A DNA stretch of 64,000 nt from NCBI GenBank assembly GCA_006384855.1, contig VCJN01002241.1, forward strand, positions 42,198 through 106,197, given 5' to 3'. Within the stretch, counting starts at the first letter, position 1. Each line of letters starts with the position of its first letter. Source of the DNA: Tetraselmis striata. Its lineage: Eukaryota; Chlorophyta; Chlorodendrophyceae; Chlorodendrales; Chlorodendraceae. The position numbers were made by a program, and so were the translations under genes. Under the pieces are notes generated by a model, which saw only the letters and a program-made list of their open reading frames with translations, had not been told where the DNA came from and did no database searches. This document shows, piece after piece, positions 14,579 to 27,217 of the stretch.

Positions 14579-15262
14579 GCCTGTCAAAGTTACCCCCCTG
14601 TTCTGGTATCCCAGCCAGCCCTCTCACTGTGGGTGGGTGTGCATGATGGGGGCATGTGATGTGCCCTTCCACGCAAGCTCCCAGGCGCGAGGACCCCTTG
14701 CATAGGTCTACTCCACTTACGCGGACCCCGTCATCATTTTGGCTTTACCCTTTGGATGATGGGTGACATGTGTGACAACATGCGCGCAGACCTGTGCAAC
14801 AATGGCGACACTGTTGTCGAGGGGGCCAGCCCGCGCTTAGCCTACGGTAAGGGCGGTATACGCATGCACCTATGGAATCGAAGGCACTTCATGTGTGCTA
14901 CTTTCACTCAACGAGGCGCGGCCAACGGCGCTTATCTTGTAGCTTGGAAAATTGTGGGATGATTGGCCCCGTCACAACGACGGGATTACTGGCACACTCT
15001 CATGGAAATGCCATGCATTGCATCGGTAGCGTGCATGGATTGGGCTCAATCTCGGTCGTCTTTCAGCGCATGCATACGTCCACCCACCACCGGCAGCGCG
15101 CGGGCATATGCGAAGGATGTTAGCTACGCCGCCAACAAGTTGCCCCCTATTCATCGCCCGTTTTTTCTGTGGTTTTAGCCATGTGCCAAGCAATGCAATT
15201 GCCGAAGAACAATTCAAAAAGTGCGATAACCGGGAGAAACGGCTGCTTGGCGTAGGAGATTT
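14579..15262. other. No gene seen
   Basis: Short ORFs only, without motifs. It forms the left flank of the large CACTG element. The last three bases are TTT. Confidence 0.4.
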
Positions 15263-15284
15263 CACTGTGAGATTCAGATGTGAC
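15263..15284 (+). repeat. Left terminal inverted repeat (22 bp)
   Basis: Perfect inverted match to 25,771-25,792 and 23,189-23,210. Confidence 0.85.
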
Positions 15285-15522
15285 ATACGGGTGACGAAGC
15301 ACTACTACTAGCGACTATTATTTATCCGTGAAGGCTGCTGCTGGTGGCGGCACGTCCATCCAGTTACGTGCGAGTACATCCGGCGTTATTGCCGGCGGGC
15401 GATAAATCCTTTTTGTCATCATTCTGGTAGTCGTACGAGCCCGGTAAAATGTTACATGGCACTGACGTATAAGGTACAAGGTTGTCCGTGTAGTACCGGG
15501 TAGTACGCGATATATTTATTGA

Positions 15523-15563
15523 GCCGGTACCGGGTATCTAGTACCCGGTACCCGGTACCCGGG
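15523..15563. repeat. GTAC-rich palindromic run
   Basis: Built of overlapping CCGGTACCGGG and GTACCCG units, so it is self-complementary. Similar GTAC-rich tracts occur at 461-482, 4753-4845, 26,884-26,915, 31,737-31,755, 35,243-35,262 and 36,046-36,080. Confidence 0.6.
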
Positions 15564-15983
15564 CACGATGACGAGTGGTCCTGTGGATAACTACGCCTAT
15601 TAGTACATGGGAGCGCAAATCGCAGCCGTTGTATTTGGTAACAGTGGGGAATTTTGTGTACATTACAGCTAGTACTGCTGAACGGGCATGCCAGCCGTCC
15701 GATCAAAGGTCATCAGATGGGCGGTTTGGCTGCCATGTTTTGCCAAAGAGTGCTCACGTTACATAAATATTCGCGAGGGGGAGGGCGGGGGCAGGCAGCG
15801 GTTTGCCGAAGAATGATTGAATTACAATATTCGCGACAGCTGCCATCGGGAAATGTGGCCCGGGGGGGGGGGGGGGGGGGGGGGGGGAGGCGGGCGGGCG
15901 TGGTCCCCCCGCCGCCCCCTCCCCCCCCCCCCCCCCGCCGCTCCCGCCGGGGGAGTGAGGGGAGGGGGGTTAGGGGGCGGGGG

Positions 15984-16202
15984 CTACTGCTTGTTCTTGC
16001 GTGCCCGGGGGACCCTCCGCTTCGACGATCTCGCTGCCTCCGCCTCCGCCTCCGCCTCCGCCTCCGCCTCCGCCTCCGCCTCCGACTCCGCGACCGTCAG
16101 TTTCTTACCTCGGCGTTTCTTCACTGGCCTCTTCCGCTTCTTGTCATCCGTCAGTGTCTTCACCACCCCGCCGGGAGGCTGTGCCGTCGACGACGCCGCC
16201 AT
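15984..16202 (-). CDS. Small basic protein with Glu-Ala repeat
   Basis: The ATG at 16,202 gives 72 residues with a strongly basic core (KKRKRPVKKRRGKK), a likely nuclear signal. A run of about eight Glu-Ala pairs follows, encoded by a GGCGGA-type hexamer repeat, and the end is basic. Upstream on the same strand, 16,278-16,704 holds pieces that may belong to the same transposon gene (EEDEKDMRKRVTRWARN, then after an acceptor FVRERRKAHLNAKAST). No family was recognised. It could be the last exon of a larger element protein. Confidence 0.35.
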   Translation of the reverse strand: MAASSTAQPPGGVVKTLTDDKKRKRPVKKRRGKKLTVAESEAEAEAEAEAEAEAEAARSSKRRVPRARKNKQ

Positions 16203-16704
16203 GAGCTTCCTTACCTTTCGCGTCGGGACGCCCCCTTGTGCCCAGACACCCACAACAAGCCACAATCGTTTCGCCTTTAAGCGGCTGAGGATGCGGCCTC
16301 CTCGGCCACCACGAGTTGCGCCGCTGGCACTGTGGAAGCCTTGGCGTTGAGGTGGGCCTTACGGCGCTCCCGGACGAACCTGCGCGCGGCACAAGTTAGC
16401 CACGAGTGGGTGCGTGCTAATGTGGAGGATGGAGTGTTTTGTTGCGCGCCCACCTTGTCACGCGTTTCCTCATGTCTTTCTCGTCCTCCTCGATGCCGGC
16501 GGCGCGGACACGCGAGACAACAAGGCTCGCCGCCCACTTTTGCCCGGGGGGGCGAGGTCGGCCATGGCGCTGTGAGCGGTGAAGGGGGGGGGGGGGGGGG
16601 GGGGGCGAGGTGGAGAAACTAACACCCAGTCGACGACCGCCTTCCGCAGCAGTCAACGACACATCGGAGGCGAGGAGCAGCGCGCCACTACTATTTATAT
16701 GCAC
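16203..16704 (-). pseudogene. Upstream exon pieces of an element gene
   Basis: Two minus-strand fragments in different frames, joined by a plausible CGCGCGCAG acceptor, are rich in Arg, Lys and Ala. A poly-G run (poly-C on the coding strand) follows at about 16,587-16,605. The order suggests a nuclear DNA-binding protein. This is inference only. Confidence 0.3.
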
Positions 16705-16965
16705 GTATTGTCAAGAGCTAGTCGGCGCGGCATTGTGTCGGTGTAATTTCGCAATGTTTATTGTTGAAGTAGCACGGCGTAATGGATACGGCGAGTGAAT
16801 CCGGGATAATGTGTGCGACGAATGTGCGCGCGCAGCGTTGTGCGGCGGTGTGCGGCGGTGTGCACCGATGTTAATATAGTGTGAATATCATATCGGCCGT
16901 AGACGATCAAGTCTGGCAGCACCGCCCGTGCTTGTAAATAAGCGACAATGGATCTAGTCTCCCGC

Positions 16966-18130
16966 TAGTGTGTGCACCGCCAGTGCACTCCGCAAGCCTC
17001 GCCTCCATCCGCGTCGGAACCGGTAGTAAGTGTTGTTGTGTGCGCACATCGTGACAACATAACACGGTGGCAATTGCAATTATTAGCGGTGGATAATGTG
17101 AAGGCGTTTTCGAAATCGACAAAGAATGAGGCGGTGCTGGCGGAGTGCATTGGCGGTGCATAGAATAGCGTGTCCCTGGGGTTTTGGCTGCATCGGACGC
17201 CGTATTCCCACCCATCCGGCACGGAATGTCCGGTTTTCACACATTTGTGTGTTAATAAAGTGTGAATATTACGCGTCTTTTACGCCGGGTGGATGGGCAT
17301 CCGGCGTCCGATGCACCCCAATTATTTGCAGCACGCTACTCTACGCACCCCCAGTGCACTCCGCAAGCCTCGCCTCCATCCGCGTCGGAACCGGTAGTAA
17401 GTGTTGTTGTGTGCGCACATCGTGACAACATATAACACGGTGGCAATTGCAATTAGCGGTGGATAATGTGAAGGCGTTTTCGAAATCGACAGAGAATGAG
17501 GCGGTGCTGGCGGAGTGCATTGGCGGTGCATAGAATAGCGTGGTGCTGGGGTTTTGGCTGCATCGGACACCGTATTCCCACCCATCCGGCACGGAATGTC
17601 CGGTTTTCACACATTTGTGTGTTAATACAGTGTGAATATTACGCGTCTTTTACGCCGGGTGGATGGGCATCCGGCGTCCGATGCACCCCAATTATTTGCA
17701 GCACGCTACTCTACGCACCCCCAACGCACTCCGCAAGCCTCGCCTCCATCCGCGTCGGAACCGGTAGTAAGTGTTGTTGTGTGCGCACATCGTGACAACA
17801 TATTACACGGTGGCAATTGCAATTAGCGGTGGATAATATGAAGGCGTTTTCGAAATCGACAGAGAATGAGGCGGTGCTGGCGGAGTGCATTGGCGGTGCA
17901 TAGAATAGCGTGTCCCTGGGGTTTTGGCTGCATCGGACGCCGTATTCCCACCCATCCGGCACGGAATGTCCGGTTTTCACACATTTGCGTGTGAATATAT
18001 ATAGTGTGAATATTACGTACGCGTCTTTTACGCTGGGTGGATGGGCATCCGGCGTCCGATGCACCCCGAATCTCACCAACACGCTACTCTACGCACCCCC
18101 AACGCACTCCGCCAGCCCCGCCTCTTTCCG
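16966..18130. repeat. ~370-bp tandem array of foldback units
   Basis: Phase markers (TGTGAATATT) at 17,261, 17,631 and 18,005 give periods of 370 and 374 bp. A fourth unit is partial on the left. Inside one unit, 17,261-17,376 pairs imperfectly with 17,498-17,613 in inverted orientation around a ~120-bp spacer. As a result both strands encode nearly the same peptide (MHRQCTPQASPPS on plus, MHRQCTPPAPPHS on minus). The units are close in sequence, so amplification looks recent. Confidence 0.85.
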
Positions 18131-19112
18131 CGCAGGTCCTACGTTCCATTGTATGTATATACATACGTATATGTACTGCTCCGAAACCAGCCCAAACTTA
18201 ATGAGTGCACAAGTGTAAATGGGGGAGGGGGGGGGGTGTGTGGCGGCGGGGCATCCACTCACACATACCCCGGCGATGCATGACAGATATTACATGCCGT
18301 GGCGGGTCGGCGGGCCGACCCGGCGGGCCGACCCGGCGGGGGGGGGGGGGGGGGGGGGGGGGGCGTCTATTCAACTACACGTGCGACAGTGTCGTTTCGT
18401 GGAGCAGTATATGTGCCCGGCCTCATTTATACCGCCCCCTACCTGCGCTGCATGGTCCACCCCTACGAATTACTCAGCACAAACCGCCATTACTTAATAG
18501 GAACCTAGCACAGCCAGGCTTATATGCCCGCTTTGCCGATCAACTTCTACGCACTTTCCGTCCCTTAACCGCCGGACATGGGGTTAAGCCGCCAGCCTCG
18601 GCAGTTGCTTAGCCAGACTTGGCATCCCGTCCCGTGTCCATGGCTTCGCAGCTCTGCCGCCGGCACACGCCGAGTCCGGCGCTTGCTGCCGCGGGGTTGC
18701 GCACGCATGCACGCACGGTAATACGCCGCCGACGCCGCCACGCTTATTTCCACCACCTTCGCCAGCCGCAGCTTCGCACGCCGTTCCACCGACATACGAA
18801 ACGCACGAATCCCCCCCCCCCCCCCCCCCCCCCCCCCCCGTCCCCGCGTCATGTACATTATATTCGAGGCGACTATGCGGGGCGCAGCACACGCCGCGGC
18901 TTGGGTCGGCGGAGCGGCATGCGGCGGGAGCCCTAATGGCCGGGCAGTATCCACACCCACACAGGCACCGCCGCTCACCTCCGACGCGGATGAACCGCCT
19001 CCCAAAGGAAACATGCCGGTTGGTGGTAATCCCAGCAGGCGTGGGGTGCCGGCGCCGGTACTGGTGCGACGGAGCTGTCGCGTCAGGAACCGCACCGCAT
19101 GTGGAGCAACAC
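18131..19112. other. Spacer with long homopolymer runs
   Basis: Contains a 26-base poly-G run (18,338-18,363) and a 29-base poly-C run (18,811-18,839), opposite in sign and about 450 bp apart, so they could pair. A direct repeat of GGCGGGCCGACCC precedes the G run. No gene was recognised. Confidence 0.5.
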
Positions 19113-19742
19113 ATGGCGGTGCCGGCCCCACCTATGTCTAGGGCCACCTCCTCACAACACCCCGCCACGACGGCGTCGGCCACCGCCGACGGCGCCGTTG
19201 CGGGGGGGGACGCCCTGCCAGGCGACGATGATGCGCCTGGTGCGCCGCGTCAGGAGGCGGAGGAGGCCGTGGTCGAGGCGACTGATCGGGCTGAGGGGGT
19301 TGTCGAGGCGAGCGAGGCTGCGCTCGCGCCACCCGCCCCGCAGCCACCTGCGGGACATGCCGACTTGCTCGTCGCCATGTTGACCGGAGCACTACGAGCA
19401 GTGGCGGGAGGCGGCCACATGCACTATCATGTGCGTGTCCTGGCCGGACGCCCGTCATGCGTGGACTGCGGCCAACGGACGGAGTGGGAGTGTTGCTGCG
19501 ACGGCACCCCGGCTTTGTGCGGCCCCAAGTACCCATGCATGGCGACCCATCAGCGGGCAGTCCTCTGCCCGACCACGGCCACGGTGAGGGCGGAGTTCCG
19601 CCATGTCAGGGACGCGTTCCACGACGCGACTCGCGCCGCCGTGTGTGAGGCTTCCGAGAAGGCACGCGCGGCTGGTAGGGTGCGCAGGGTGAGGCGGCGG
19701 ACGGCCCAGGAGCTGAAGGAGAGCGAGACATGCCGTCAGTGA
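19113..19742 (+). CDS. Cys-rich zinc-ribbon-like element protein
   Basis: The open frame extends to 18,936, but the ATG at 19,113 is the more credible start, giving 209 residues. The first half is Ala/Glu/Pro-rich and acidic. From residue 116 it reads CVDCGQRTEW, then CCC, LC, C and H. This spacing (C-x2-C ... C-x-C ... LC ... C-x3-H) resembles the C-terminal cysteine domain of piggyBac-type transposases. A basic tail (RVRRVRRRTAQ) ends the protein. In a CACTG element such a domain would be unexpected, so the family is only suggested. It may be the last exon of a longer gene. Confidence 0.45.
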   Translation: MAVPAPPMSRATSSQHPATTASATADGAVAGGDALPGDDDAPGAPRQEAEEAVVEATDRAEGVVEASEAALAPPAPQPPAGHADLLVAMLTGALRAVAGGGHMHYHVRVLAGRPSCVDCGQRTEWECCCDGTPALCGPKYPCMATHQRAVLCPTTATVRAEFRHVRDAFHDATRAAVCEASEKARAAGRVRRVRRRTAQELKESETCRQ

Positions 19743-19777
19743 GGTCGGGCGCAATGTCATTGGGTGGGGCACACGGA

Positions 19778-20100
19778 CGTGTAACACTTGCACTTCGTGC
19801 GTACTGCTGGGTTACATCCAAGCGGTGTCACACTATGCAACCGGAAAGGCTGCGTTGCTACTGCAAACGATGCTACGCCTCACGCGGTAGCAACCGCTGC
19901 CCCGCCTATCCCACAGCCGCTGCCCCCCCCCCCCCCCCCCCCCCGCGCGGGATCCCCGCCACCAGCAGCTTGCACTTGCACTTTGCGCGTACTGCTGGGT
20001 TACATCCAGGCGGCGTCACACCGGAAAGGCTGCGTTGCTACTGCAAACGATGCTACGCCTCACTCGGTAGCAACCGCTGCCCCGCCCATCCCACTCGGGA
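19778..20100 (+). repeat. Two ~200-bp repeat units with poly-C cores
   Basis: Units start near 19,778 and 19,972 and contain TTGCACTT, CTGCTGGGTTACATCCA and a GCAACCGCTGCC segment. The first ends in a long C run. Three more units occur at 23,211-23,770. On the plus strand they encode a Cys-dense peptide (RCYCKRC), but the C runs make translation through the units doubtful. Confidence 0.7.
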
Positions 20101-20631
20101 TGCTGAGAGCAGCTAAAGGGCACCGGGGGCGGGGCAAGAGGGAGCAGGGCCAATGATTGTGGAAGAGCGGGGACCCGCTTGCATGCCATCGTATTATATC
20201 TTGCACAATATCTGTTGCTGCACTCATATCTCACATCACTAGCTTAGCTATAGTGATTCCCCCCCCCCCCCCCCCCCCCCCCCCGCACCGCGTACGCACA
20301 AGCCTGGGTATACGCATCAACTGCCCGCCGGGATGAGAAACTGGTATTGGTAGTGTGTCTGTGGGGTGGAGGGGGGGCAAAAGAGCTGCCAATTGCTGCC
20401 AAGCTGGTGCGTTACATTGGGGGAGGCGCTGGGCAGACAATTGGGGCTCGCTTCAGAGCATTGTCTAGTGCCTATGCGGCTGCGCCGCCTCCGCCGCATG
20501 CAGACTCTCCGGGCTCACCAGCACCGCCACCTCAGTCAAGCGGCCCTGCATCCCGCAGCCCGCCGCCGCCAGCCAGATCAGAGGTATCCAGAAGCCAGTG
20601 TTGGGGTTGTTGCGGCATGACCGCATAGTTT

Positions 20632-22601
20632 TCAGCGGCTGCCGTCCACAACTTGTAATGCATCCCTTTCCGCCGATTCCGCTGTATGCGCTGTCTTGGC
20701 GCCGCGCTGCCCCGGCCGCCGCGCCTTGGCGCCGCGCTGCCCCGGCCGCCGCGCCTTGGCGCCGCGCTGCCCCGGCCGCCGCGCCTTGGCGCCGCGCTGC
20801 CCGGCCGCCGCGCGTTGGCGCCGCGCTGCCCCGGCCGCCGCGCCTTGGCGCCGCGCTGCCCCGGCCGCCGCGCCTTGGCGCCGCGCTGCCCCGGCCGCCG
20901 CGCCTTGGCGCCGCGCTGCCCCGGCCGCCGCGCCTTGGCGCCGCGCTGCCCCGGCCGCCGCGCCTTGGCGCCGCGCTGCCCCGGCCGCCGCGCCTTGGCG
21001 CCGCGCTGCCCCGGCCGCCGCGCCTTGGCGCCGCGCTCCCCCGGCCGCCGCGCCTTGGCGCCGCGCTGCCCCGGCCGCCGCGCCTTGGCGCCGCGCTGCC
21101 CCGGTCGCCGCGCCTTGGCGCCGCGCTGGGTATCGAGTCCTCCCCTCCCTAGTGAGCGCGTCCACCTGCGCCTTGCGCTCGGGGCCGTCCTCCTCCGTCA
21201 CCACATTCTGCAACCCCCACCGCGTGACGAACCACGCAGCTCCTAGCAGGCGCTTGTACATGTGCCCAAGCACCGCCTGGGGACGCGAAGCTCCTTCTCG
21301 GTCATGATCGCCTTCACCCGGGCCTCCTCGAGCAGCGGACCGGCGTTAAGAATGGAAAACGTTTCCATGTGGTTCAAGCAGTCCTCCATGACCCAGCCGG
21401 GCTGCACCGTCACCTTGCCTGACCCTGCAGTCATGGAGGGGAATGCCGTCACGCCCACGCCCACGCACGCCCACGCCCGGGGGGGGGGGGGGGGGGGGGG
21501 TGTTTACAGATTCTTGGACACTGCAAACGAAGGGCGCAACCCGCGTTCAAAGTTGCTGGGTATCGGGACTAAAGCCTGGCGCCGGTCTTCCTGCTTCATA
21601 GCTCGGAATCCAATGTGGCCCTGCACGGTGACAAATTTCCTCCAGAAGTCCCTTCCCAAGCCAAAAAAAAACAGGTGGAACGACGCGAGGGGGAAGAGGT
21701 TGACCATGCTGACATAGCCCAGGACCACATGCACATGGCACACGCCATGGCAGCCAGTGTTCTGCTTGGCCTCCGCCAGCCGGGTTGTGTTGACCGCACG
21801 CCGGGCAAGGTGCGTGATTCACTGGACAAGTCATCGCCTTCATGGACGGTTACCAAGCGAGCCTCCCCGTCCGCATCCACAGGGGGGTGCTCCTGGGCAG
21901 CCGCCATATATAGCCTCCACAACCTGCCACGCCGACCGGGCGGGTGCGTGTGATTCCATACAACCGCAGTTGAGTGGTGCCACCAGCACGCAGGCCGGGC
22001 CCACTCACCTCTGAACGCAGAAGGCCCACAATGCCCCCGTCCTCGAAAACAGCGCGCCACTGGGTCGCCCCGCCGTAGTCCTCCAACACCCACTCGGTAA
22101 CGACGCCGGTTATCACGCCGTAGTGCCATACTCCCCGGAACTTCTTGGCGATGACCTTCATGTAGAAGTCGCCGGGATCGCCTTTCCATATCACGCCCTC
22201 ATCGCGGGTTCCACGCCCGCCGGCGGCCACGCAGGCGCGTCGATGTCCATACCGTCTTCGCCAACGGGGTCCTCCCCCACGCCCATCACATCGTCCACCT
22301 TCGAGCCGCCGTCGTCCGAGACCGGCGCCGGCGGGCCGTTTCCGACGGCTGCAGCTACTCCCGCTGCCGCCCCTGTTGTTGTTGCTGCTGCTGCTGCCGC
22401 CCCTGCTGCTGCTGCTTGTGATAAGGCGGCCTTGCGGCGCAACTTAGCCGCACGCTTCAACGAGTGGCTACAGTTCGGGAATTTTAGGAAGTGCCGCTCT
22501 CGCGCCATCTTATCACATGTGCACGTCACGTTGCCCCGGCAGTGCTTGCATGAGTACACGCCATCCTTCGACACACTCGCTATCCATTCCTTTGCCGGCA
22601 T
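20632..22601 (-). pseudogene. BED-finger plus Tudor-like element gene, copy A
   Basis: From 22,601 the product starts MPAKEWIASVSKDG and has a C-x2-C ... H-x5-C finger (CKHC to HFLKFPNC), like BED fingers of hAT-type transposases. An Ala-rich linker follows. A one-base indel near 22,205 shifts to the frame with VIAKKFRGVWHYGVIT and WRAVFEDGG, a Tudor/Agenet-like motif ending at a GTGAGT donor. Downstream pieces are FGLGRDFWRKFVTVQGHIGF (about 21,680), an intron with poly-C (21,479-21,500), GWVMEDCLNHMETF, then a frame shift near 21,280 into WFVTRWGLQNVVTEEDGPE and the 30-bp repeat tail. Not functional as it stands. Confidence 0.5.
20698..21128 (-). repeat. 30-bp GC minisatellite A, ~14 units
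   Basis: The unit is GGCGCCGCGCTGCCCCGGCC plus GCCGCGCCTT. On the minus strand 30 bp equals ten codons (RRQGAAAGAA), so the array extends the element gene in frame. One 29-bp unit at about 20,788 shifts the frame near the far end. Units differ by a few substitutions (TGCCCC/TCCCCC). Confidence 0.85.
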
Positions 22602-23188
22602 GCCTGCTGCCGCGCGCGGGGGGCGGGGGGGGGGGGGGGGGGGGTTGAGAGTTGGGGTGGATGTAACCCACCACCGGCAGGCAACACAGATGCGAGTGCG
22701 CGGCTGTCCGCGCTTGATTCAACGGTGAGCGGCGGTGACCGTGAGGCGACCCCGTACTTCATGCGCGTGCTGGGGCGTTACACAATCATCAGCAGTTAGG
22801 GCGGCTGCATTAAAACGCGCACCTACGAACACCACCTACCGCCTACCACCTACCGTACCACCTACATCCGCCCACACCTCCGCCCGTCGTGCCGCACATC
22901 GCCGCACACCGGGGGGTCAGCGGTCAGCGATGTGCGGTCAGCGATGTGCGGCGATGTGCAATGAGTGCGTACATCCGCCTGTACTTAGCCCGGGTGCTCC
23001 GCGTCGGCGGGCGACACGCGAGCCCGCGTGCGCATATCAATTTGATGAAATTATGGAAACGAGAAATTCATATAGTACTTTACAGGTCGCGCGCGATAGT
23101 CGTCGCTACTGGGTATGAAATCCACGTCCCTCGTCCGTCCCGTATCGTCCCCGTATGTCGTCGTTCGTCACCAGTAGGGCACATTTAC

Positions 23189-23210
23189 GTCACATCTGAA
23201 TCTCACAGTG
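23189..23210 (-). repeat. Internal copy of the right terminal repeat
   Basis: Same 22 bp as 25,771-25,792. It marks the join between the two duplicated right-end blocks. Confidence 0.85.
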
Positions 23211-23770
23211 CGTGTAACACTTGCACTTTGCGCGTACTGCTGGGTTACATCCAGGCGGTGTCACACTATGCAACCGGAAAGGCTGCGTTGCTACTGCAAA
23301 CGATGCTACGCCTCACTCGGTAGCAACCGCTGCCCCGCCCATCCCACAGCCGCTGCCCCCCCCCCCCCCCCCCCCCTCGCGCACCGTCCTGCGACCTCGC
23401 GTGGATCCCCGCCACCAGCAGCTTGCACTTGCACTTTGCGCGTACTGCTGGGTTACATCCAGGCAGCGTCACACTATGCAACCGGAAAGGCTGCGTTGCT
23501 ACTGCAAACGATGCGACGCCTCACTCTGTAGCAACCGCTGCCGCGCCTATCCCACAGCCGCTGCCCCCCCCCCCCCCCCCCCCCCTCGCGCACCGTCCTG
23601 CGACCTCGCGTGGATCCCCGCCACCAGCAGCTTGCACTTGCACTTTGCGCGTACTGCTGGGTTACATCCAGGCGGCGTCACACTATGCAACCGGAAAGGC
23701 TGCGTTGCTACTGCAAACGATGCCACGCCTCACTCGGTAGCAACCGCTGCCCCGCCCATCCCACTCGCCT
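23211..23770 (+). repeat. Three ~200-bp repeat units with poly-C cores
   Basis: Units start at about 23,211, 23,426 and 23,630. They are the same as the two units at 19,778-20,100. The last runs directly into minisatellite B after CATCCCACTCG, whereas in block A the same junction is followed by about 600 bp of other sequence. Confidence 0.75.
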
Positions 23771-25210
23771 TGGCGCCGCGCTGCCCCGGCCGCCGCGCCT
23801 TGGCGCCGCGCTGCCCCGGCCGCCGCGCCTTGGCGCCGCGCTGCCCCGGCCGCCGCGCCTTGGCGCCGCGCTCCCCCGGCCGCCGCGCGTTGGCGCCGCG
23901 CTGCCCCGGCCGCCGCGCCTTGGCGCCGCGCTGCCCCGGCCGCCGCGCCTTGGCGCCGCGCTCCCCCGGCCGCCGCGCCTTGGCGCCGCGCTGCCCCGGC
24001 CGCCGCGCCTTGGCGCCGCGCTCCCCCGGCCGCCGCGCCTTGGCGCCGCGCTCCCCCGGCCGCCGCGCCTTGGCGCCGCGCTGCCCCGGTCGCCGCGCCT
24101 TGGCGCCGCGCTGCCCCGGCCGCCGCGCCTTGGCGCCGCGCTGGGTATCGAGTCCTCCCCTCCCTGGTGAGCGCGTCCACCTGCGCCTTGCGCTCGGGGC
24201 CGTCCTCCTCCGTCACCACATTCTGCAACCCCCACCGCGTGACGAACCACGCAGCTCCTTGCATGCGCTTGTACATGTGCCCAAGCACCGCCTGGGGACG
24301 CGAAGCTCCTTCTCGGTCATGATCGCCTTCACCCGGGCCTCCTCGAGCAGCGGACCGGCGTTAAGAATGGAAAACGTTTCCATGTGGTTCAAGCAGTCCT
24401 CCATGACCCAGCCGGGCTGCACCGTCACCTTGCCTGACCCTGCAGTCATGGAGGGGAATGCCGTCACGCCCACGCCCACGCACGCCCACGCCCGGGGGGG
24501 GGGGGGGGTGTTTACAGATTCTTGGACACTGCAAACGAAGGGCGCAACCCGCGTTCAAAGTTGCTGGGTATCGGGACTAAAGCCTGGCGCCGGTCTTCCT
24601 GCTTCATAGCTCGGAATCCAATGTGGCCCTGCACGGTGACAAATTTCCTCCAGAAGTCCCTTCCCAAGCCAAAAAAAAACAGGTGGAACGGCGCGAGGGG
24701 GAAGGGCCTCCAACACCCACTCGGTAACGACGACGGTTATCACGCCGTAGTGCCATACTCCCCGGAACTTCTTGGCGATGACCTTCATGTAGAAGTCACC
24801 GGGATCGCCTTTCCGTATCACGCCCTCATCGGCAGCTTCCACGTCCGCCGGCGGCCACGCAGGCGCGTCGATGTCCACACCGTCTTCGCCAACGGGGTCC
24901 TCCCCCACACCCATCACATCGTCCTCCGAGACCGGCGCCGGCGGGCCGTTTCCGACGGCTGCAGCTACTCCTGCTGCCGCCCCTGCCGCTGTTGCTGCTA
25001 CTGCTGCCGCCCTGCTGCTGCTGCTTGTAATAAGGCGGCCTTGCGGTGCAACTTAGCCGCACGCTTCAACGAGTGGCTACAGTTCGGGTATTTCCGGAAG
25101 TGCCGCTCTCGCGCCGTCCTTTCACTACTGCCCGTCACGATGCCGTGGCAGTGCTTGCATGTGTACACGCCATTCTTCGACACACTCGACATCCATCCCT
25201 CTCCCGGCAT
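23683..25210 (-). pseudogene. BED-finger plus Tudor-like element gene, copy B
   Basis: Duplicate of copy A. The finger is at about 25,100-25,210 (CKHC, then a changed linker). Here the linker runs in frame into VIAKKFRGVWHYGVIT, so the indel of copy A is absent. About 375 bp corresponding to 21,700-22,080 are deleted, joining VTEWVLE to a later exon out of context. The intron with poly-C (about 24,495), the GWVMEDCLNHMETF exon and the repeat tail are present. The two copies carry different breaks, so each reports part of the ancestral gene. Confidence 0.5.
23772..24143 (-). repeat. 30-bp GC minisatellite B, ~12 units
   Basis: Same unit as minisatellite A but about two repeats shorter, with a different order of TGCCCC and TCCCCC variants. 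Array length has therefore changed since the duplication. Confidence 0.85.
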
Positions 25211-25770
25211 GCCTGCTGCCGCGCGCGCGCGGGGGGGGGGGGGGGGGGGGGGGTTGAGAGTTGGGGTGGATGTAGCCCACCACCGGCAGGCAACACAGAT
25301 GCGAGTGCGCGGCTGTCCGCGCTTGGTTCAGCGGTGAGCGGCGGTGACCGCCAGGCGACCCCGTACTTCATTCGCGTGCTGGGGCGTTACACAATCATCA
25401 GCAGTTAGGGCGGCTGCATTAAAACGCGCACCTACGAACATCACCTACCGCCTACCACCTACCGTACCACCTACATCCGCCCACACCTCCGCCCGCCGTG
25501 CCGCACACCGCCGCACACCGCGGCGATGTGCAGCGATGTGCAGCGAGTACTTGCAGCCGCCTGTACTTAGCCCGGGTACTCCGCGTCGGCGGGCGACACG
25601 CGAGCCCGCGTGCGCATATCAATTTGATGAAATTATGGAAACGAGAAATTCATATAGTACTTTACAGGTCGCGCGCGATAGTCGTCGCTACTGGGTATGA
25701 AATCCACGTCCCTCGTCCGTCCCGTATCGTCCCCGTATGTCGTCGTTCGTCACCAGTAGGGCACATTTAC

Positions 25771-25792
25771 GTCACATCTGAATCTCACAGTG
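25771..25792 (-). repeat. Right terminal inverted repeat (22 bp)
   Basis: Perfect reverse complement of 15,263-15,284, followed by TTT. Confidence 0.85.
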
Positions 25793-27217
25793 TTTGCATA
25801 CACTGGATTACAAGCAAAGGCTCCATGGCCCGTGGCCCCATGGCTTGGGCACCGAGGCGAGGATACGCGCGGATTTCTATGTGCAAAGACTTATGTGGAC
25901 TGGTGTAGGTAAGTGGACCTGCTGTAGTCATCAGCAGGTAAGCGCGACGGTTATTATTACGCGGAATTATTACGGAATCTAAAACGAATACATTGTCGAT
26001 CTATATTATAATCTATGCGAAACCGTTCCGAAAGTCGGCGACAGACTCGCGCACAGACTCACCTCGTAATTTTTGGATTACCCGGGCTAGTTGAAAAAAT
26101 TCACGGAACTCACCTCGTAATTTTAAATATGGTAGGATGCTGATCCGGGGCGAACTTTTCTGTACTTTAACACCTGTCTGCTGACCAGGTGCTGACCATC
26201 AAAAAAATTAAGGATTAGGCGGCGCGGGCGCAGTCGTGCTGGTGCTGACGTCATCTTGACCAGCCTCATCAATCAGTCATCATCATACCACGTGATGGCA
26301 TGTCGGGAACTATCGAAGTAGCCCATCTGTCCATCTGCGCATCACCCGCCACCCGCGGCTTATTCATGTAGCGACTATATATTTCGCCACTTCGCCAGCT
26401 GCGCTCTGGATTCTCGGTCATATTCTTCTGCGTTGTGTTTTCACAGTTCAAATATGGCGCGACCTGCGTCCCAAGTCACGGATGGATGGTGGTAGTGGTG
26501 TCAGCACACCATCACCTGCTTATCCTTACCAGGTACAGACAGGTACCGCAGGGTTCCCGCCAAATAGTCGCTATATCCAGCTCCGCGTGCGTGCTGACAC
26601 CGCGTCCGCGTGATGATGCTGCCCGGCCGCTACTAAAGTACTGTATGCTCATTTGAAGTTATCTTCCATCGCGGCAGCAGAACCAACGCGCGATGGTATC
26701 GTCGTAACTTAAAACGGATAAATTCAGAATACCATGTGTCATAGCAAACGGGCCCAACTACATGCTGGATGATGACATGAAATTTGCCGCAGGCGGACTA
26801 CGGGTACAGGCCGATAATATTTCGGCGGTGGCTATCAACAGACCTCCAGGAGCAGTGTACTCCTGGGGCTACTGCCCTACGATATTCCGGTACGGTACCT
26901 GTACGTACTCGTACTTTCGTACAACGGCGCGGTGTATTATATACCTGTAATAAAGAGCGCATTATACAGTAGCTAGCACCGTAATGCTGGACTGCTGGTA
27001 CCCGTTCCTGCATAGTCATACTTGCTGCTGCTGGCGCTTATTGCCTGCTGCATAATATTCGGCCCTGCTGTGCCGGCGACTCTCTGCTCCCCTCCCCTCG
27101 CTGCAGTTCTACGCACGGCTCTCTCCGGCCCGTCAAAGCTCACTGCCGCACCAGACCACACCACGACTTATCGCAACAGACAGTTGGGATCATCACCAAC
27201 TCCACTGCATATTCGAT
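25793..27217. other. Intergenic region before the DnaJ gene
   Basis: No gene was seen. A CACCTCGTAATTTT motif is repeated at about 26,061 and 26,110. A SINE-like tail (CCGGGGCGAACTTTT) lies at about 26,144 and a GTAC-rich tract at 26,884-26,915. The promoter of the DnaJ gene must lie near the right end, but no TATA box was evident. Confidence 0.4.

Follow-up and report, generated by a model that had tools for sequence, protein, structure and literature searches.

A CACTG-ended transposon family in the green alga Tetraselmis striata and a composite copy with two right ends

Related transposon systems

Inverted CAC..GTG ends together with 3-bp target duplications are considered consistent with EnSpm transposons in an excerpt of PMC12730594. 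A stricter definition, given in part of PMC4158355, requires CACTA and TAGTG as the first and last 5 bp of a CACTA element. An excerpt of PMC2528002 describes Ulp1-like domains for five CACTA families of grapevine and for rice proteins that also contain Tnp2. In this study, we analyzed a 64,000-nucleotide stretch of T. striata DNA (the window) that contains a 10.5-kb element with CACTG..CAGTG ends.

The element resembles EnSpm/CACTA transposons in its CAC..GTG inverted ends (here a perfect 22-bp repeat), in 3-bp target duplications of variable sequence and, as in the CMC group, in the occurrence of deleted copies beside full ones. A Ulp1-like gene in its longer relatives recalls the grapevine and rice cases, as far as the excerpt of PMC2528002 describes them. 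Its CACTG/CAGTG termini are unlike those of the strict definition in the cited part of PMC4158355. The candidate transposase of the longer relatives gave no Pfam match (the EnSpm/CACTA enzyme being recognised as tnp2/Transposase_21), no H(3-4)H motif was seen in it, and its N-terminus is BED- and Tudor-like. The family is CACTA/EnSpm-like in its ends and target duplication; membership in EnSpm/CACTA is not established, given that no Pfam family was matched by the candidate transposase. A six-frame genome search with Transposase_21 gave no matches, and its search controls were silent too.

The Plavaka and other fungal CMCT lineages, as presented in the excerpt of PMC12730594, share 2-3-bp target duplications and accessory genes beside the transposase, but Plavaka termini are given there as TGT..ACA or CATCA..TGATG. 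KDZ elements (Zisupton, Dileera and Kyakuja) differ by target duplications of 7-8 bp against 3 bp here, and a genome search for KDZ (PF18758) returned nothing, as did its controls. The target of piggyBac is TTAA, and this superfamily was rejected because the targets here are varied 3-mers. There were 113 genomic matches to DDE_Tnp_1_7, the piggyBac transposase domain; none of the five compared by eye with the 100 listed termini (contigs up to C155) lay between paired ends. DUF7869, examined as a transposase lead by way of gene model P0027, was discarded, since it is part of another repeat, 4.4 kb long, whose ends are different.

For the arrangement of the ends, a comparable case is maize Ds, which belongs to a different superfamily. 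An excerpt of PMC3260210 describes a Ds element nested in another, giving extra ends per unit, and mentions a macrotransposon that uses the ends of two elements. Insertion of one member into another is the likeness to our locus; unlike the Ds units in that excerpt, the copies here are in direct orientation and one half is missing. Among the literature matches listed, we found no description of a CACTG-ended Tetraselmis family.

Termini, copy number and the standard element

The initial annotation described a mobile element with perfect 22-bp inverted termini, TTT on both flanks and an extra right terminus, and all of these features were recovered (Table 1). The terminus occurs exactly at three sites in the window and in none of 100 shuffles. 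With up to three mismatches, the genome contains 2,393 termini (1250 + 1143 matches), far above chance, as the same pattern read backwards has no genomic match.

Table 1. Features of the composite element (window coordinates)
Feature	Position	Strand	Remarks
Outer target-site duplication, left TTT	15260-15262		gapless paralogous empty sites
Left terminal inverted repeat, CACTGTGAGATTCAGATGTGAC	15263-15284	+
Standard 7.95-kb element, copy A	15263-23210	+
Three ~370-bp tandem units with ~97-nt inverted segments	16963-18128		repeat families D2, D11; inverted repeats I1-I3
Cys-ribbon ORF, 268 aa	18936-19742	+
Two ~209-bp subterminal repeat units, copy A	19785-20097		families D3, D6, D9
GC-rich 30-bp minisatellite	20690-21128		length differs among elements
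~1.1-kaa gene remnant	21124-21818	-	P0039 residues 537-690, 701-750
~1.1-kaa gene remnant, N-terminal BED-like and Tudor-like part	21982-22508	-	P0039 residues 1-175
Inner right terminal inverted repeat, copy A	23189-23210	-
Putative right part of sister copy B	23211-25792	+	junction unique in genome
CGT, putative 3-bp target of nested insertion	23211-23213		other copies: GGA-CGT-GTAACACTTGC
Three ~209-bp subterminal repeat units, copy B	23211-23767		families D3, D6, D9
30-bp minisatellite, copy B	23769-24143
~1.1-kaa gene remnants, copy B	24145-25114	-
Outer right terminal inverted repeat, copy B	25771-25792	-
Outer target-site duplication, right TTT	25793-25795		paralogous empty sites

Target duplications of 3 bp, variable in sequence, were exact in 20 of 31 end pairs and inexact in 11. 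These comprise 10 of 20 pairs in a first sample, 8 of 9 in a second, and single pairs with CCG (C142) and GCG (C925); for the two samples together (18/29), the binomial probability at a 1-in-64 chance is 9e-26. The absence of a matching duplication in half of the first sample is unexplained. For the window insertion, two paralogous empty sites could be aligned. After one of the two 3-bp copies is taken out, both align across the junction without a gap; the flanking repeat is continuous, and both sites read CTT in place of TTT. With many further termini in the genome and these gapless sites, neither of the two conditions named against the transposon in the initial annotation was borne out. A paralogous empty site was also found for the L009/L012 insertion.

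We sampled 20 copies whose facing ends are spaced 6-9 kb apart. All align along copy A and end within 3 bases of the base equivalent to 23210; their lengths are 6.1-8.6 kb, with a mean pairwise identity of 97.7%. Because the usual family member stops at this point, the terminus at 23210 is the normal right end of the family, and the outer 2.58 kb are an addition. The window element belongs to a cut-and-paste family with many near-identical copies from which genes have been deleted.

Origin of the second right end

The initial annotation had proposed that the block at 19778-23210 was duplicated. A counterpart does exist at 23211-25792, with an identity to the first block of 97.2% at 23745-24704, 88.7% at 23211-23555 and 90.9% at 24707-25792; simple duplication fared less well, for reasons given below. 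Copy B is a mosaic of copy types, and the junction at 23210/23211 occurs once in the genome.

We consider it probable that one copy of the family inserted into another. An element of ~15 kb, with a ~1.1-kaa gene, a Ulp1-like gene and the Cys-ribbon ORF, would have given rise by internal deletion to the 8-kb copy A, which would then have been mobilised in trans by the likely transposase encoded by the ~1.1-kaa gene (with its BED-/Tudor-like N-terminus). Sister copy B would have inserted first, generating the TTT duplication, and copy A would subsequently have entered B at CGT. The left part of B may then have been lost through recombination between the left halves of both copies, which lay in direct orientation, so that TTT-[A]-CGT...[right part of B]-TTT remained. 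In the left half of the window copy, we could not place a crossover point. Nesting also occurs elsewhere: the copy on C126 lies within a fragment of a sister copy, with TAG at both sides. Additional copies have a duplicated right end (C70, outer flanks AAG/CGG) or probably a duplicated left end (C35, GGG/TCG); as these outer flanks are unmatched, the recombination step is not cleanly seen elsewhere.

Three other origins are consistent with part of these data. The 10.5-kb composite might have been built elsewhere and have arrived by its outer ends as a macrotransposon, producing TTT in one step. The matching outer flanks and gapless empty sites agree with such a history, but no donor or second copy of the unique junction was seen (cut-and-paste movement need not leave one), and we regard it as unlikely. 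Somewhat less likely still is an assembly artefact, in which a genuine nested direct pair collapsed across near-identical left halves of ~4.5 kb. Copies that average 97.7% identity over 8 kb, half of them in the 20-copy sample without matching duplications, would favor such a collapse; it fits poorly with a base-exact inner-end junction, matching TTT flanks and a continuous flanking repeat.

A tandem duplication of the right-end block in place, within a single element, is improbable. The two blocks are collinear, and besides the 97.2% segment the final 270 bp of copy B are 97% identical to copy A. Nevertheless, the second block begins at the exact terminal base of copy A, the ~209-bp units number two in A against three in B, and positions 24707-25792 resemble copy L018 (97.3%) more than they resemble the first block. 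The starting point and the similarity to L018 suggest, on the basis of sequence comparison, that the extra right end is probably not an in-place duplication. Competition between two right ends within the composite, as first proposed, would be a possibility at most, since the junction occurs only once in the genome.

Genes of the family

The gene content had been judged non-standard for EnSpm/CACTA, which holds; the Cys-ribbon, BED and Tudor pieces are part of a more extensive set of family genes. One relative of 14.9 kb (C925:25273-40193) shares the same ends (0 mismatches), is flanked by GCG duplications and contains in addition a Ulp1-like gene and the greater part of a minus-strand gene of ~1.1 kaa. 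It matches all three family genes, its Cys ORF being split across two frames. Sequence matches to the ~1.1-kaa gene indicate that the "BED" and "Tudor" ORFs of the window are its remnants. In the window copy there was no match to P0039 residues 176-536 and 751-1125 or to the Ulp1-like protein, and Rfam and tRNA searches of the window found nothing. The 8-kb element looks non-autonomous.

That the 8-kb element is autonomous, with the Cys-ribbon product as its transposase, is scarcely credible: this product is 99.6% identical to P0001 of a transcript collection (mmetsp) and 17 of 21 copies are free of in-frame stops, but four contain stops, 15 of 21, compared with the window copy, have an indel whose length is not divisible by three, and longer versions of the family with larger genes exist. 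The ORF has no sign of constraint (pN/pS 1.22; 1.30 in the C-terminal part, where shifted frames gave 1.09 and 1.27). The ratio for the BED ORF (0.91) does not differ from that of shifted-frame controls (0.91, 1.01).

The product of the ~1.1-kaa gene is the likely transposase. Its N-terminal part has a weak Tudor match; none of 28 members matches any Pfam family at E 0.1, and three pieces gave no Pfam match at E 10. EnSpm/CACTA enzymes carry C(2)C and H(3-4)H motifs between the second D and the last E; in P0068 a single C(2)C (264-267) was seen but no H(3-4)H, and its catalytic residues were not located. Structure predictions of both large proteins gave unusable models (mean pLDDT 30.6 and 32.0). 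Searches of PDB sequences returned no match for two profiles or for P0011 and P0025, and a single chance-level match (E 0.89) for P0053, a protein that may resemble plant TnpD. Among viral contigs, 91 pattern matches included no relatives of the large protein.

For the Ulp1-like gene of the longer relatives, nine of 15 models had C48 matches at E<0.1, the best of them at 1.7e-4, and 2 of 15 match C57; a P0025 piece scores 19.4 bits, under the Pfam cut-off of 20.7. WTCG is invariant in these proteins, the preceding Gln is nearly so, and an upstream His is seen in P0025, a His/Gln/WTCG arrangement that may correspond to the C48 catalytic pattern.

The unusual aspect of the family is the poorly recognised gene set of its 15-kb copies. 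We tentatively suggest, as a possibility, that the ~1.1-kaa protein represents a transposase lineage absent from current libraries. Its N-terminus would combine a BED part with a Tudor-like part that reads chromatin, and it would act on CACTG ends and travel with a Ulp1-like deSUMOylase. It might have raised the number of 8-kb passengers above a thousand; the insertion of these copies into each other would keep producing units with surplus ends, able to mobilise longer composites.

Overall, these data connect an abundant repeat family of a marine green alga with its probable autonomous source, which encodes a transposase candidate missed by Pfam. The perfect, defined ends of the family could serve in a two-component mobilisation assay. 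In a family so dense that its members hit each other, the composite is a plausible by-product, and the Ulp1-like gene would extend the association of CACTA elements with Ulp1 from flowering plants to an alga.

Termini, copy number and target duplication

The features from which the initial annotation had deduced a transposon, i.e., identical 22-bp inverted ends, TTT at both the left and the right outer flank of the composite, and an extra right terminus, were all present: the window contains three exact copies of the terminus, against none in 100 shuffles. The terminus also recurs throughout the genome (224 Mb, 2,903 contigs), with 1250 plus-strand and 1143 minus-strand matches at up to 3 mismatches and 0 for the backwards control pattern. 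We infer about 1,200 two-ended elements, which would make up some 4% of the genomic sequence, assuming a length of 8 kb for most of them.

Among the first 100 listed terminus places, 20 pairs with facing ends spaced 6-9 kb apart were chosen by eye; they were 6,081-8,618 bp long and 92.2-98.5% identical to copy A, with a mean pairwise identity of 97.7%. Because 28 of 30 pairs among the listed places spanned 6.1-8.9 kb (the other two, both on C142, were about 13-14 kb), the standard element ends at the inner right terminus, with the outer 2.58 kb as an addition. Numerous poly-G/poly-C runs of about 20-30 bases occur within the element.

Coordinates of the element, its parts and other sequences discussed (window positions unless a contig is named)
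Feature	Position	Strand	Observation
Left terminus	15263	+	
Inner right terminus	23189	-	last base 23210
Outer right terminus	25771	-	
Standard element (copy A)	15263-23210		
Cys-ribbon ORF	18936..19742		268 aa
Second block (copy B)	23211-25792		
Second block, inner segment	23745-24704		97.2% to first block
Second block, outer segment	24707-25792		90.9% to first block; 97.3% to L018
Outer segment, first piece	24707-25200		99% to L018
Outer segment, second piece	25250-25792		98% to L015
Embedding repeat	15063-15262, 25796-25907		at least 40 paralogs, 92-94% identity
Poly-G/poly-C runs	about 15862-15887, 16585-16606, 18811-18839		others present
Long relative	C925:25273-40193		14,921 bp; 0 mismatches in either end
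Possible long family member	C142:88885-101914		facing ends 13 kb apart; ATA both sides
piggyBac-type array	G000:C1755:140865-147203		four tandem DDE_Tnp_1_7 matches, spacing exactly 2,024 bp

Identical flanking 3-mers were found in 10 of the 20 sampled pairs and in 8 of 9 further pairs (binomial tail 9e-26 for 18/29, given a random-match probability of 1/64). With a 13.9-kb C142 copy (CCG on both sides) and the C925 long relative (GCG), the count is 20 of 31, and the duplicated 3-mers vary from site to site; the 11 mismatched flanks could reflect ectopic recombination or misassembly. For one copy, L009, an uninterrupted paralog of its insertion site, with a single GGA, is provided by the left flank of L012. 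The composite itself is embedded in another dispersed repeat, and its joined flanks match through the join at 40 scored places (of 719 candidates) with 92-94% identity. Two of these 40 were aligned as paralogous empty sites; they are consistent with the proposed insertion, with no gap at the junction and CTT in place of the window's TTT.

The extra right end

The second block adjoins the inner terminus without any intervening base and opens with CGTGTAACAC; the same spot in all 20 sampled copies reads GGA-CGT-GTAACAC or a near variant. The junction at 23210/23211 occurs once in the genome. The right-end duplication proposed initially is in keeping with the collinearity of the two blocks and with their close resemblance over the inner segment and the last 270 bp (97%), but simple copying of the first block would not readily account for the outer segment. 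Since this segment matches the individual copies L018 and L015 better, the second block probably came from another copy.

Insertion into sister copies was directly seen on C126, where a copy flanked by TAG on both sides lies within a sister-element fragment, 46 bp of which is left on its left side. C70 has an arrangement like that of the window, copy A plus a right part, and C35 looks like the reverse case, with 160 bp of element sequence to the left of A and a further left end 7.7 kb upstream. A clean outer duplication is confined to the window case, because the outer 3-mers of C70 and C35 differ between sides.

Long relatives and coding capacity

Among 21 copies of the 8-kb form, the window copy's ORFs are without sign of constraint. 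pN/pS was 1.22 for the Cys-ribbon ORF (1.30 in its C-terminal part; 1.09 and 1.27 in shifted frames) and 0.91 for the BED ORF (0.91 and 1.01 in shifted frames). In-frame stops occurred in 4 and 0 copies, respectively, and indels relative to the window copy that are not multiples of three in 15 and 3.

The long C925 relative matches all of the Ulp1-like protein P0025 (875 aa) and, on the opposite strand, residues 1-1110 of the large protein P0039 (1,125 aa); its Cys-ribbon match is split over two frames. In the window copy, P0039 is represented by residues 1-175, 537-690 and 701-750, and P0025 has no match. With only these pieces of P0039 and nothing of P0025 remaining, this copy appears to have arisen by internal deletion. 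The 8-kb copy lacks the central part of the large gene, for which the genome has at least 194 matches (150 of 255 candidates scored); among the matches listed, at least 67 places cover 145 or more of the 246 residues in this part, and 61 of these places are stop-free within the match. The large-protein models P0053 and P0068 represent 10 and 12 member sequences, and several models of these types have locus numbers adjoining Cys-ribbon or P0025-type models. Proteins matching the element are labelled Tetstr1, which we take to denote Tetraselmis striata, and one has the listed source mmetsp.

The gene models P0013 (including PF07727), P0043 (including PF04565) and P0050 contain element pieces fused to other sequence and are probably insertions or model errors. 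A separate 4.4-kb repeat (L043 on C58, L044 on C63) encodes DUF7869 (PF25273) and has at least 150 matches (150 scored of 548 candidates). An open frame of 376 aa is present in many of them, and the two copies examined carry a 24-bp tandem array and ends unlike those of the CACTG family.

Protein identities and classification

Of 15 P0025-type models, nine gave weak matches to Ulp1/C48 at E<0.1 (best 1.7e-4) and two matched C57; a P0025 piece scored 19.4 bits, under the cut-off of 20.7. A WTCG motif is invariant in these proteins, and P0025 has an upstream His. None of 28 members of the ~1.1-kaa protein type matched Pfam; an N-terminal piece gave a weak Tudor match below cut-off (E 0.024), and the BED-like piece had no Pfam match, leaving the initially annotated BED finger as a description of a Cys/His pattern only. 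The ~1.1-kaa protein is a candidate transposase because the complete element carries its gene, whereas the multiplied derivative has lost part of it.

The family resembles EnSpm/CACTA in its CAC..GTG-type ends and 3-bp target duplication; however, its terminal pentamer is not the CACTA of the strict definition, and the protein tests likewise do not fit, so we label it CACTA-like and a possible member. An Ulp1-CACTA association features in a report on grapevine (PMC2528002). Overall, the window element is likely to be a deleted CACTA-like DNA transposon bearing a probable nested-insertion scar, from a family with a candidate transposase, unrecognised by Pfam, in its longer copies.
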